A stretch of DNA of 39,635 nucleotides from a virus, in the IMG/VR virus record IMGVR_UViG_3300010885_041816, positions 1 through 39,635 of that record, one strand, 5' to 3'. The notes under the pieces were generated by a model. It did not search any database and was not told where the DNA came from. It saw only the letters and a program-made list of their open reading frames with translations. Positions 2,637-39,635 of the stretch are shown here, one piece after another; position 1 is the first letter of the stretch, and each line of letters opens with the position of its first letter. The position numbers were made by a program, and so were the translations under genes.

Positions 2637-2906
2637 TTAGATGTCCCTCCAGCCGATGAGCTTGCCGCTCGCCAAGGTCAAGCCAACGGAGGGAATCGGG
2701 TAGAAGACTCCGTTCAGCAGGGTTTCGCCAACGATTGTGGAATCGCCACGGTAGGCTTGGCCGCCGCGCTGTGAGGGGAATGTGATCGCGGCTAGCACAG
2801 CATCGCCACCGCTTGGTGTGAAACCGTAAACAGGGTCGTTCGTCAAGTCGATAGCGCCCGTGCCCGTGAGCATCTTGAAGCCTGCATTCGCGAAAGGATC
2901 GTTCAT
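2637..2906 (-). CDS. Small putative tail/appendage protein
   Basis: This 89-residue beta-rich protein (MNDPFANAGFKMLTGTG at the start, GKLIGWRDI at the end) has no signal or membrane segment. The ATG at 2906 is chosen; a TTG three codons earlier is possible and neither has a clear ribosome site. It lies in front of the fibronectin-repeat gene with three bases between them. It probably forms part of the same structure, but no family was recognised. Confidence 0.65.
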   Translation of the reverse strand: MNDPFANAGFKMLTGTGAIDLTNDPVYGFTPSGGDAVLAAITFPSQRGGQAYRGDSTIVGETLLNGVFYPIPSVGLTLASGKLIGWRDI

Positions 2907-2972
2907 GCCTAACAACGCTGATCGAATGCAGCGAAGTCAACAGGAAATGAAACGGTCAAAACATTGGACATT

Positions 2973-3323
2973 TCAGGCAGCACAAAGCCGCTTTGTGGTC
3001 CGTCGATTTCGCTCGCGAAGCTTTGCCGCAAGGCGCTTAGCGCGTGACTTGACCTTTCCGCCTATTTGCCCGCCACGCCTGCCCAACTCTCGGAAGAATT
3101 CGGACGGATTGAAGGCCTGAACTGGCGCTTCTGCCTCAAGTTTTGCCACCGCGCCCTTGCACCTGCAGCACTGTTTCGAGGCGTCCATTTCGTCAGCCTC
3201 AAGCAATAGCCAGGACTGCCAGCGACCTTTCACAACGGTCTTGCAAAGCGCCTGCCCGTCAACAACGGCGTGATGGGAATCATGGGAGGAGGTCTTGCAC
3301 CAAACGGGAGATTTTGCGGCCAT
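2973..3323 (-). CDS. Basic, cysteine-containing hypothetical protein
   Basis: This 116-residue protein has a central CCRCK cluster (about residues 52-56), two further cysteines near the N-terminus (9 and 27), and a very basic C-terminal 45 residues. That tail contains GRRGGQIGGKVKSRAKRLA, which resembles the glycine/lysine KGG repeats of stress-type proteins. The ATG at 3323 is 53 bases after the giant virion protein gene. Codon use resembles the neighbouring genes, which supports a real gene. It could bind nucleic acid or a metal. No function can be assigned. Confidence 0.6.
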   Translation of the reverse strand: MAAKSPVWCKTSSHDSHHAVVDGQALCKTVVKGRWQSWLLLEADEMDASKQCCRCKGAVAKLEAEAPVQAFNPSEFFRELGRRGGQIGGKVKSRAKRLAAKLRERNRRTTKRLCAA

Positions 3324-25667: not shown

Positions 25668-26078
25668 TTATAGCCTTCTCATCGCATCTGACGCTCTTTG
25701 CCAGATCGGCCCGTATTCGACCATGCGGCAAATATCAGAAAGCCCTGCCATTTTTCGAGCTACCTCGATTTTCAGCGCCTCGTTTTCCGCCCGATGGTTC
25801 GCCGCTTCGGCTTTCAGCGCCTCGATTTCGCCCATTTTATCAACTCCCTCGTCAATGATTACGTCGCGCTGAAATTTGGCGGACACTGCCGCACCCTTCC
25901 ACCGCCTCACCTCTTCCGAGGTGATAGCAGCCCGCAACGTTTCAAGCGCCAGCCTTGCCCGCTCCTTGCCTTGCGTCGTGACGCTCCCCCAGGCCGGAGC
26001 CGTTAGGGTTGCCTCACGCATCAGTTGCCAAAGAGTTTCGGGAGTCATTTCGGGAGAAGCTGCAGTTTCGTTTTTCAT
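25668..26078 (-). CDS. Hypothetical coiled-coil protein
   Basis: This is a 136-residue protein. A helical N-terminal part (EMTPETLWQLMREATLTA) is followed by KERARLALETLRAAITSEEV, and then a coiled-coil region at about 82-110 with heptad-like KMGEIEALKAEAANHRAENE. It ends in a short globular tail. The ATG at 26078 overlaps the stop of the small relic gene upstream (ATGA). It is the last gene before the late promoter. I do not recognise its function. Confidence 0.7.
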   Translation of the reverse strand: MKNETAASPEMTPETLWQLMREATLTAPAWGSVTTQGKERARLALETLRAAITSEEVRRWKGAAVSAKFQRDVIIDEGVDKMGEIEALKAEAANHRAENEALKIEVARKMAGLSDICRMVEYGPIWQRASDAMRRL

Positions 26079-26245
26079 CGTTTTTTCAGTGTTTTTTCAG
26101 TGTTTTTGGTGTGTTGAGGATGGCACACCGACGCGTAAGGCCCGCGATACAAGCGAGCGTCCCTCTCCATGTCGTTGACATCGCAGCCCGCTAACGTCTT
26201 GTAAACGCTATCAGAACGGGCGAAAAGAACAGCGACCGGTGTCAT
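26075..26245 (-). CDS. Truncated relic of a common phage protein, 56 residues
   Basis: The ATG at 26245 overlaps the stop of the DnaC-like gene, and its TGA overlaps the ATG of the coiled-coil gene (ATGA at both ends). Residues 4-31 (VAVLFARSDSVYKTLAGCDV, then NDMERDA) match the opening of a phage protein family that I remember as longer, roughly 150 residues or more, and as continuing with a VVAHPPCRAWG motif. Here the sequence changes at that point to VCHPQHTKNTEKTLKKR and stops. The conserved core is missing, so the protein is probably inactive, yet the frame has stayed open and coupled. Family resemblance is from memory. Confidence 0.55.
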   Translation of the reverse strand: MTPVAVLFARSDSVYKTLAGCDVNDMERDARLYRGPYASVCHPQHTKNTEKTLKKR

Positions 26246-26949
26246 ACGGTGAACACCTCCGCAGAGCGCCTAAGCCGGTTAATGATCGGGTCCGCCCTGT
26301 CTTCTGTCATGTTCTGCCGCAGGTCGGAGCCTTTGCTATTCGCCGTCCAGAGAATCGGGCGCTCGTATCGCTCGCGAATCTCAAGGACGTGATAGAGATC
26401 GGTTTCCACGCGCTCTGTCAGCTTGGCTTTGCCTACGTCGTCCATCAGCAAGATTGCCGCATTCTCGCAACGCTCGCGGTAGGCTTTCCGCCGGTCCAAA
26501 TCGGCGCAGCAGTCGGCGAACTCAGTCGAAAGGGTGCAGAACACATCCCAGCCGGAAACGAACGCCCGCCGCGCTACTTCGTGAATCAGCATTGACTTGC
26601 CGCCATCAGAAGGCCCAACGAGGGCAATTCCAGCCCCGCTGGTAGCTTCCGGCGACCATGCCAATACGGAGACAGCGCAAGCCTTGCCGCGAGGCGGTAG
26701 GCGCTCGAAATCGAAACGGGCATAATTCGGGGGGCAAATCGACAACCAAGGATCGGTTGCCGCTTTCGGCTTGATCGGGTTGCCAACGCTATCCAGTCCG
26801 AGCTTTGCTTTCATCGCTGCCGTGCATTCGTCGGAGCAGCACTTCTGCACCAGTCGCCCGAACAGCGTCAGGCCATCGAAACCCTTGCCGCAATGGTGGC
26901 AAGTAGCCGGTTTGGTGGGGATCGTAGCGATGTCAGAAAGCGCGGTCAT
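26242..26949 (-). CDS. DnaC-like helicase loader (AAA+ ATPase)
   Basis: This is a 235-residue protein. The first 45 residues carry a four-cysteine zinc-binding pattern (CHHCGK ... CCSDEC). A Walker A motif, GPSDGGKS, lies at about residue 112 and Walker B ILLMDDVG at about 165-172, followed by a sensor region (ILWTANSKG) and an arginine near NRLRRSAEV at the end. This is the layout of DnaC/IstB-type loaders, which place the host replicative helicase on a melted origin. It overlaps the end of the DUF1376/O-like gene by 17 bases, a usual initiator-loader pair. Confidence 0.88.
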   Translation of the reverse strand: MTALSDIATIPTKPATCHHCGKGFDGLTLFGRLVQKCCSDECTAAMKAKLGLDSVGNPIKPKAATDPWLSICPPNYARFDFERLPPRGKACAVSVLAWSPEATSGAGIALVGPSDGGKSMLIHEVARRAFVSGWDVFCTLSTEFADCCADLDRRKAYRERCENAAILLMDDVGKAKLTERVETDLYHVLEIRERYERPILWTANSKGSDLRQNMTEDRADPIINRLRRSAEVFTV

Positions 26950-27721
26950 CGGTGGGCAATGGGTTGAATTTGCGAGCGCGGTCTAGTTCGCCTGTCCAGT
27001 TGTTCAGTAGGGTGAGCAGATCGCGCCGCCGGTAGTCTTGGGCCTTGGGAAGGGTGGCGTTGTAGTACCTGCCAAGCGTTGCCACATCGTCTGCCAGCAG
27101 ATCGCCGAGAGCCTTCCAGGAAGCTTGCTCTTTGGCGCTCCACGGCGTTGTGTCGCGGCGATTGAACCACGATCCAACAGCGGCTTGGAACTGCGTTGGC
27201 GTCCAGGTTTTCGGCTTCACAGCCTCGACAACCTCAAGTTTCAAAACCTCCCCATTCCCCTGGGGGTTAGGGGGTATATCTCCGTTAGGAGATATGGGTG
27301 AGTGGTGAGTGGTGAGTGGTGAGGAAGCCGTTAAGATGTCCGTCAAGATAGGTGTTGTAGAGTCTCTTGTAGAGTCTCTTGTAGAAGCTCTTGTAGAAGC
27401 TCTTGCGGCGTTCATTTTGGCTATCTTGTCGCGGCTCTTAGCGATCCTCTCGCGCTGCTCTTGTCGAACAACTTCAAGGCGTTTGTTGCGGCGCTGGCCA
27501 TCTTCGCAGACTCCGAACTTCTCCAAGAGAGCAGGCGTTACGCCCTTGCCGCCAAGGCGCTTGAGTGCTGCAACATCATCCGGCAACCCGTCATTCAGCC
27601 ACTGGTGGCACAGGAGCCGCAGAAAGGCTAGTTGCTCAGCGTCTGAAAGGATTGCCACGCCAGATAGCCACCGCTCAGGGTAGAAATCAAATGCAGGCGC
27701 GTCTTTTGTTGTGGTGCTCAT
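26933..27721 (-). CDS. Replication initiator, DUF1376/O-like
   Basis: This is a 262-residue protein. Residues about 10-55 (FDFYPERWLSGVAILSDAEQ, then LLCHQWLNDGLPDD) are the DUF1376 signature found at the N-terminus of many phage replication proteins and likely form a winged helix. Residues about 95-170 are a low-complexity linker with four ASTR/DSTR units and a Pro/Asn-rich part. The C-terminal region (TWTPTQFQAAVGSWFNRRDT, then LLTLLNNWTGELDRAR) resembles the helicase- or loader-contacting parts of O-like proteins. The gene is directly upstream of the loader. The DNA under the linker has repeats resembling an origin (see the separate entry). Confidence 0.8.
   Translation of the reverse strand: MSTTTKDAPAFDFYPERWLSGVAILSDAEQLAFLRLLCHQWLNDGLPDDVAALKRLGGKGVTPALLEKFGVCEDGQRRNKRLEVVRQEQRERIAKSRDKIAKMNAARASTRASTRDSTRDSTTPILTDILTASSPLTTHHSPISPNGDIPPNPQGNGEVLKLEVVEAVKPKTWTPTQFQAAVGSWFNRRDTTPWSAKEQASWKALGDLLADDVATLGRYYNATLPKAQDYRRRDLLTLLNNWTGELDRARKFNPLPTDDRAF
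27270..27408. repeat. Repeat cluster inside initiator gene, putative replication origin
   Basis: Three kinds of repeat lie together. Four 12-bp units occur at 27361-27408 (AGTCTCTTGTAG twice, AAGCTCTTGTAG, AAGCTCTTGCGG). Three 7-bp units (GTGAGTG) run from 27298 to 27318 with a partial fourth. An 8-bp perfect hairpin, ATATCTCC-GTTA-GGAGATAT, lies at 27276-27295. In lambda-type phages the origin is formed by iterons within the linker-coding part of the O gene. Position, number and neighbour genes match this, so an origin is inferred. Confidence 0.5.
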
Positions 27722-38272: not shown

Positions 38273-39385
38273 TCACCGCGCCTTCTTGAGCGCCTCGCGC
38301 AACGCCTCCACCTCTGCGTGTTGATACTGCCGATGGACCTTCGTTGAATCGTGGTCTGTGACCATGCGGGCAACGTCGCTCGTCACGCCCGCCGCAGTCA
38401 GCCGGGAAACCATGCTGTGACGGAAGGAATGGAAGCTGATCGTGTGGGTAATGCGGCCCTTGCGCGTGACTGGCACCGGGTCAATTCCAGCAGCCTCAAG
38501 CCAGGCGATGAAGTCAGCCGACACTTTGCCGCCGGAATTACTGCCGCGCCGGATGGTGCTCAGATCGCCGAGGCGCTGCACCAGCTTTGCCAGGAAGCTC
38601 GGAATCGGTAGCACGATCAAACGGCCCTTCCCTTGCTTCTTCTTTGGGTCAATCGTGATCAAGTCGCCCTTGATGGCCGTGGCCGTGGTGGAGAGCAGAT
38701 CCTGGATGCGGTGCCCAGTGTGCCAGCCAAGCAGCGTCAGAGCGCACCAGTCGGACCGCTTCGCCTTTCGCATCGCCCGTAGCAGCTTCCCGCAGTCCTT
38801 GCGGCTGATCGTGCCCTTGTTGAACCTTTCACCGGCCATCTTCTCCACCGCCGCCACAGGATTGTTCGGACGGTGCCCGAGCGCTACGGCCTTGGTGAAG
38901 ATCATGGACACGAAGTTGAGCCGAAAGCGGGCAGTGTTGGCCGATACTGAATCAAGCGACCATCGGTAGTAGCTAGTGCAGTCCGCCGTTGTCCAAGCAT
39001 CGACCGGAGCTTTGCACTTCCAGCTGTCCCATTCCTCCAGAGAAGTCAGAACCGATTCGTAGATCTTGGCAGAACTGGCCGCCAAGGATGCCCGCCCAAT
39101 GAACGCCGTAGCCATCGAGTGGAACGAGGGGACCACTTGCAGCAGATCGACACCAGCGAGCCGCAGAATGTCCGCAACAGCCGACTGCGCCTTCTCCCTC
39201 GTCATGCTCCCGGCCTTGGCCTGCGCTGCCACTCCCTCCAACGTGGCCACGATGCCGAGCGCTTTAGCCTTGTCAGTCTGCCCCGTGGACTGCGGAACGT
39301 GCCGCCACTTGCCCCGGGCTGCATCCCAGGCCCTTACCGAGCCTATCCAAATGTCTGAACCTCTGCGCCGGAATACTGATCCCAT
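38273..39385 (-). CDS. int: Tyrosine integrase
   Basis: This is a 370-residue site-specific recombinase. The N-terminal region (about 1-90) starts with GSVFRRRGSDIWIGSVRAWD, an arm-binding AP2-like region. The core-binding part spans about 95-190. Catalytic residues can be traced: Arg in GWHTGHRIQDLL (about 223), Lys in KKKQGKGR (about 250), His and Arg in SFHSFRHSMVSRL (about 318-324), a later His in DHDSTKVHR, and the nucleophile Tyr in HRQYQHAEVE (about 354). The ATG at 39385 is preferred over a TTG at 39403. It should integrate the phage at a host attB using the neighbouring attP. Confidence 0.92.
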   Translation of the reverse strand: MGSVFRRRGSDIWIGSVRAWDAARGKWRHVPQSTGQTDKAKALGIVATLEGVAAQAKAGSMTREKAQSAVADILRLAGVDLLQVVPSFHSMATAFIGRASLAASSAKIYESVLTSLEEWDSWKCKAPVDAWTTADCTSYYRWSLDSVSANTARFRLNFVSMIFTKAVALGHRPNNPVAAVEKMAGERFNKGTISRKDCGKLLRAMRKAKRSDWCALTLLGWHTGHRIQDLLSTTATAIKGDLITIDPKKKQGKGRLIVLPIPSFLAKLVQRLGDLSTIRRGSNSGGKVSADFIAWLEAAGIDPVPVTRKGRITHTISFHSFRHSMVSRLTAAGVTSDVARMVTDHDSTKVHRQYQHAEVEALREALKKAR

Positions 39386-39402
39386 GCACAAAAAAAGCCA
39401 CA

Positions 39403-39431
39403 AATAAAAGCTTTGTCACCTGAAAGTTCAA
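39403..39431 (-). promoter_or_regulatory. Putative integrase promoter
   Basis: On the minus strand TTGAAC (39431-39426) is followed after 17 bases by TTTATT (39408-39403), each matching four of six consensus positions. The spacer contains one of the two 15-bp direct repeats, so a protein that binds the repeat would compete with polymerase. Transcription would start about ten bases before the integrase ATG. Confidence 0.4.
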
Positions 39432-39519: not shown

Positions 39520-39635
39520 ACCCTTCAATCAAAACAACCGTATTCCATTCGATCATTGCCGCACTAGGCGAAAGTGCTTGGTTGCATAAAAAAAAGCATA
39601 ACGCCGCACGATTTGACAAAAGCGACAAAGGCGAC
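39520..39635. repeat. Direct terminal repeat, right copy
   Basis: This is identical to bases 1-116. Joined through this repeat the map is a circle of 39519 bases, and the last lysis gene is followed by the attP-like region and then the integrase gene. It contains no gene. Confidence 0.95.

Follow-up and report, generated by a model that had tools for sequence, protein, structure and literature searches.

A probable replication origin in the linker-coding part of a phage DUF1376 initiator gene

The window analysed here is the whole of a virus record, 39,635 bases long. With a direct terminal repeat of 116 bp (1-116 and 39520-39635), the record is a complete genome, either circularly assembled or terminally redundant. 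An integrase gene lies at 38273-39403, and scans of the window against Rfam and for tRNAs gave no match. The features discussed below centre on an initiator gene (Table 1). The gene after it matches DnaC-like and IstB-like proteins in both Pfam and PHROG scans, as an earlier note, made from the letters of the window, had supposed in calling it a DnaC-like loader.

The initiator itself is only weakly recognized by existing profiles. Pfam matches it to DUF1376 (PF07120) over nearly the full profile, at 26.2 bits against a curated cut-off of 30.1 (E 1e-5), and PHROG matches it to two 'primosomal protein' families (E 1e-8). Neither scan returned a lambda O family, and Pfam at E 0.001 returned none of the double winged helix families of iteron plasmid Rep proteins (Rep_3, RepA). 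The AF2 model begins with three helices (residues 15-21, 27-43 and 50-57), a pair of short strands and a long helix (80-117), mostly at pLDDT above 90; a disordered linker then leads to a helical domain at the C-terminus. The predicted structure of one relative (L078) has the same plan, with a long helix of 37 residues. Searches of the PDB by fold and by sequence profile gave no significant match; the best fold matches were models of other viral DUF1376 proteins, and models of Lin1244-type proteins matched too. In predicted fold, and in a domain match that falls below the cut-off, the initiator resembles DUF1376 phage proteins and the Lin1244-type replisome organisers.

Table 1. Position of the initiator gene, its neighbour and the repeats within it (window coordinates)
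Feature	Position	Strand	Remarks
Initiator gene, O-like	26933-27721	-	262 aa; DUF1376 N-terminal part, linker and exchangeable C-terminal helical domain
DUF1376 domain, residues 11-83	27473-27691	-	predicted three helices and two-strand wing, in winged-helix-like order
Proposed iteron-recognition segment, residues 95-107 within long helix 80-117	27401-27439	-	co-varies with iterons
Four 12-bp iterons, CAAGAGNNTCTA	27358-27405	-	no mismatch; dyad core AGAG-N-CTCT in two copies
Spacer between iterons and heptamers, 34 bp	27324-27357	-	58% A+T at 27330-27360; ends TTCCT
7-bp array, CACCACT	27297-27323	-	3.9 exact copies; coding strand without G
Perfect 8-bp hairpin, ATATCTCC-TAAC-GGAGATAT	27276-27295	-	loop TAAC
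C-terminal helical domain, residues 162-242	26996-27238	-	common to initiators with other N-termini
DnaC/IstB-like helicase loader gene	26242-26949	-	overlaps end of initiator gene; same neighbour in relatives

All the repeats that the earlier note had described in the linker-coding part are present, two of them with altered limits. The four iterons placed at 27361-27408 fit best in the register 27358-27405, and the three heptamers placed at 27298-27318 belong to the longer array given in Table 1; the hairpin, with its four-base loop, stands as described. Elsewhere in the window the iteron recurs once, with one mismatch. The repeat arrays are not due to chance: TRF scores the two at 54 and 74, and a shuffled window yields 0.05 arrays scoring at least 54. 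When codons were resampled with the protein held fixed, the heptamer array recurred in none of 5000 trials and the 12-mer array in five. The hairpin folds as DNA at -5.7 kcal/mol, which none of 200 shuffles equalled.

Relatives of the initiator were sought by protein similarity and not by repeats. Seventeen with related N-terminal domains were found, ten from viral contigs (L001-L006, L081-L084) and seven from genomes (L073-L078, L080); with the window they make up the 18 genes compared below. Because every match among genomes was to Verrucomicrobia, the host of the phage most likely lies within that group. When the window protein, L003 and L006 were compared by tblastn with a collection of named phages, the one match was weak and fell in a Paracoccus phage. 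Among ten relatives tested, the gene directly after the initiator encodes a DnaC-like loader in nine and DnaB in the tenth (L005). The relatives carry several kinds of C-terminal domain, and the kind found in the window also occurs behind other N-termini.

None of the 17 relatives keeps the gene without the repeats, so the loss in close relatives that the earlier note had named as refuting its origin was not observed. All 18 genes show one succession at the same place: an iteron region with short dyads spaced 11-12 bp apart comes first, CACC-type (CACCACY) heptamers come next, and a third of the genes have a hairpin after these. TRF detects 10-13-bp arrays in 14 of the 18 genes and in 8 of 66 control ORFs from the same loci; for 7-bp arrays the counts are 15 of 18 and 3 of 66, and for both together 12 of 18 and 1 of 66. 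More distant DUF1376 proteins (L085-L088) are without the CACC heptamers. In the initiator gene of L077 a 12-bp iteron (CCAAGCAGTGCT) is repeated in tandem 23 times (2837-3111 of that locus), and the array encodes a long APSS repeat.

Are these arrays features of DNA or of protein? They might be no more than tandem codons for a flexible linker, or products of slippage, with no role as DNA. They do encode a disordered linker (pLDDT about 45-50 at residues 121-160), the 12-mers of the window stay in frame (ASTR/DSTR), and similar heptamers occur in unrelated intergenic places. Periods of 7 and 11 bp, however, break the frame. The same heptamers are read in frame 1 in 13 genes, in frame 0 in L001 and L082, and in frame 2 in L073, L074 and L076. 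Since all three frames are used, it is the DNA and not the protein that is conserved, and a protein linker cannot explain the heptamers. At synonymous sites the heptamers barely vary; the codons of invariant residues in the N-terminal domain do so freely. In almost all genes the array begins at the last half-iteron (TGCC/CACC, TCGC/CACC, TTGC/CACC, the slash marking the junction), and this abutting arrangement is kept among relatives at 30-60% identity. In most relatives the spacer is absent; L073 alone shares the TTCCT/CACC junction of the window. The failure of codon resampling to recreate the heptamers, and the dyad structure of the iterons and their co-variation with the protein (see below), likewise stand against a linker without a role as DNA, which we consider very unlikely. 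The suggestion in the earlier note that the ASTR/DSTR segment may serve as both linker and binding site is not supported by the same comparison: each relative has its own repeat-encoded amino acids, and the heptamers use all three frames.

The heptamer is not in itself specific to origins, as it also lies between genes in unrelated phages. We rejected CACCACY arrays as an origin-specific mark; most matches across the collection fell outside DUF1376 genes, many of them just upstream of start codons. Other phages show a separate repeat phenomenon, in which intergenic CACCACT arrays (L016, L021, L022, L026, L028, L037, L042, L067 and others), often facing GAGTGGTGAGTGG across a short gap, form large inverted repeats before start codons.

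The hairpin is less constant than the two arrays. Six of the 18 genes have a stem of at least 7 bp in the 45 bp that follow the array, against an expectation of 2.9% (p 8e-6). In five of these six the loop is 3-4 bases long and the hairpin starts 0-6 bases past the array; the stem sequences are all unrelated. The five tested by DNA folding fold far better than their shuffles. Because the remaining 12 genes lack one, the hairpin is helpful at most and not essential, and its presence in only a third of the relatives counts against an origin model.

The iterons themselves follow a common design. In the 120 bp before the arrays we counted 52 dyads of the form 4-N-4 (four bases, a free base and the four complementary bases), where 7.4 were expected. 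Adjacent dyads are mostly 11-12 bp apart, or one helical turn. Their sequences fall into classes, among them AGAG-N-CTCT in the window, AGCA-N-TGCT in L002, L004 and L077, CGCA-N-TGCG in L001 and L074-L076, CGCT-N-AGCG with GCGA-N-TCGC in L006, L078 and L081-L084, and GGCA-N-TGCC in L080.

What in the protein follows these classes? The earlier note had proposed comparing the repeats with the winged helix. The iterons do track the protein, but in a segment just after the DUF1376 domain and not in the domain itself. Genes that differ more in residues 95-107 also lie further apart in iteron k-mer distance (r 0.69), and the figure is unchanged once the remainder of the N-terminal domain is controlled for (partial r 0.69; 0 of 5000 permutations); for that remainder itself the value is 0.05 or less. 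Earlier segments show no correlation with the iterons (residues 80-92, 0.05; 67-79, 0.07; 27-43, 0.12; 50-57, 0.10). Because the first iteron encodes the C-terminus of the helix in some genes, and in the window overlaps the last residues of the segment, we also computed the correlation for residues 97-101 alone, which gave 0.66-0.71. Specific pairings can be listed: RRxGAxxTNxxR with CGCT-N-AGCG, SEQRxAAxxxR with CGCA-N-TGCG, EKxxKMxxxR or SKxxKMxxxR with AGCA-N-TGC, and SR(D/E)KIAKMNxAR with the class of the window. L073 and L076 are 94% identical in their DUF1376 domains, yet both their helices and their iterons differ.

As helix and iterons are adjacent in the DNA, part of the correlation could come from linkage. 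We considered whether a linked block had recently been transferred and rejected this as the cause, codon divergence in the helix being as large as elsewhere. In the largest class, codon identity at shared residues is 0.29 in the helix and 0.33 in the domain; as it is no higher in the helix, the link between helix and iterons is old. A later profile search of Verrucomicrobia genomes added three genes (L146, L150, L155), all of which carry the module and the iteron class that their helix predicts. Adding L146 and L150 and dropping near-duplicates gives a partial r of 0.64-0.71 (0 of 10,000 permutations). We propose from these comparisons that residues 95-107, and not the DUF1376 domain, mainly set iteron specificity. 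If the pairing is real, placing the RRxGAxxTN segment of L078 in the window protein would move its binding from AGAGNNTCT to CGCTNAGCG/TCGCTNAGCGA. Helix and iterons would then make up a natural code of protein-DNA recognition, already solved for several pairs, and the initiator genes of uncultured phages would directly reveal their origins.

The anatomy of the module, its conservation as DNA, its fixed order, the neighbouring genes and the co-variation of helix and iterons can all be read from the sequences. They argue that positions 27276-27408 are very probably a theta-type replication origin in the linker-coding part of the phage's own initiator gene. The lambda-style origin of the earlier note is kept in one half: comparison (the module in 17 of 17 relatives, conserved as DNA, with a loader or DnaB neighbour and helix co-variation) strongly supports an origin within the initiator gene, but not the easily melted region that lambda would lead one to expect. 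The heptamers are 59-71% G+C. In the relatives neither the array nor the following 60 bp is AT-rich, and no AT-rich stretch lies consistently beside the module; near the iterons of the window only the spacer is AT-rich, and mildly so. GC skew across the window makes no clear turn at the repeats and is uninformative as an origin marker.

How might such an origin work? We infer that the initiator would bind, dimerise and open the DNA, that a single strand would be used, and that replication would start at this site. Initiator dimers would bind the dyad iterons at sites one helical turn apart, with specificity coming mainly from residues 95-107, and the complex would open the adjoining DNA. The heptamer array may be where the initiator holds the opened single strand, or where the loader delivers DnaB; such a role for the heptamers is a weaker proposal than the origin role, and we advance it with some doubt. 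The hairpin might bound or mark the opened strand. The C-terminal helical domain, proposed as the contact with loader or helicase, may recruit the loader encoded by the next gene.

The iterons could instead form an operator at which the initiator represses or regulates its own operon, with replication starting elsewhere. Plasmid Rep proteins often autoregulate through iteron-like sites, which favours such a reading. The sites, however, lie more than 300 bp inside the gene and not at a promoter, no consensus promoter was found at the repeats, and a short array and a hairpin beside the iterons do not belong to an operator; we consider this reading, too, very unlikely. Equally improbable is an origin just past the loader gene, before the one that follows it (26071-26107), where four helically phased A-tracts 11 bp apart (TTTTTCAGTGT x3.4 on the plus strand, TRF score 60, 70% A+T) make a typical bent, weak stretch; phased tracts were not found at the loci of the relatives, all of which have the module in the initiator gene, and the stretch is directly upstream of the start codon of a minus-strand gene (25668-26078) and may be its leader. 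The A-tracts could still assist replication from an origin in the initiator gene.

In phage lambda the gene for the helicase loader P lies next to O. The origin of lambda, like those of the Stx phages P27 and 933W, lies in the middle of gene O and has inverted-repeat iterons bound by a dimer-forming initiator (PMC7466680). The present locus resembles lambda in a probable mid-gene origin, inverted-repeat iterons and an adjacent loader gene, with binding here predicted. It differs in its 9-bp dyads at 11-12 bp spacing, where lambda iterons are 18 bp, in having GC-rich heptamers in place of an AT-rich region, and in an initiator with no detected sequence kinship to O. In lambda-type phages a variable number of iterons, four or six, lengthens the O protein (PMC7466680), a trait shared with the initiators compared here. 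Plasmid Rep proteins hold a single strand in the repeats of the opening region, and lambda O binds single-stranded DNA of the AT-rich region (PMC10797057, PMC7466680). In SPP1, oriL consists of direct repeats in the initiator gene 38 (gp38), with the loader gp39 encoded alongside and gp40 as helicase (PMC6316719). Repeats inside the initiator gene and a loader encoded with it are common to SPP1 and the window, whereas in SPP1 the DNA unwinding element is AT-rich and oriR serves as a further origin, a pair not identified here. In iteron plasmids (RK2, F, R6K) and in origins with DnaA boxes and DnaA-trios, iterons are followed at a fixed distance by shorter repeats in the opening region (PMC10797057). 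The order of double-strand iterons and a shorter second repeat is the same here, but those second repeats are T- or AT-rich and lie outside the initiator gene, whereas the heptamers are C-rich and lie inside it. Gene-internal origins are already known; the novelty lies in a second tier made of heptamers, in dyad iterons this short and in a cassette of helix and iterons. Among open-licence papers we found none tying DUF1376 to an origin. For this common phage domain without an assigned mechanism, the data suggest a testable one, origin binding, and the residues that may choose the site. How would a duplex be opened without an AT-rich element? GC-rich heptamers beside the iterons raise this question.

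A similar arrangement extends to more distant initiators. We examined 28 non-redundant ones, either other DUF1376 proteins or proteins with other N-termini and related C-terminal domains. Iteron-like arrays of 10-13 bp, or of double units, occur in 21 of the 28 genes and in 7 of 58 control ORFs (p 1e-8). In 12 of the 28, such an array has a 5-8-bp array no more than 45 bp after it, which is so in none of the 58 controls (p 2e-7). The short units vary (TCTGCAG, GAACCAA, AGAGACC, CCAAAG, TCAGTC, ACGGAG and others). The protein could partly account for hexamer arrays, which stay in frame, but not for heptamers. It is close to an even call whether related phage initiator families share a two-tier origin, in which 10-12-bp dyad iterons precede a 5-8-bp array that holds single strands or loads helicase in place of an AT-rich region, together with a specificity cassette of a 13-residue helix and its iterons, which lie next to each other in the gene and are swapped or evolve anew without the DUF1376 and C-terminal loader-binding domains. 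If so, phages could change their replication specificity in one step.

Three further loci deserve mention. An initiator of another family (L048, 4197-5069) has GC-rich repeats, then linker CACCACC heptamers, then AAGATC hexamers. L020 (12679-13512) has CTCA and CACCACT arrays near its 5' end and a C-terminal part resembling a DnaA-type or primosomal segment. In the initiator genes of L135 and L152, whose 11-bp iterons differ and whose linkers are unrelated, the iterons are followed in both by the hexamer TCAGTC, translated as SVSV in one and, in another frame, as SQTQ in the other.
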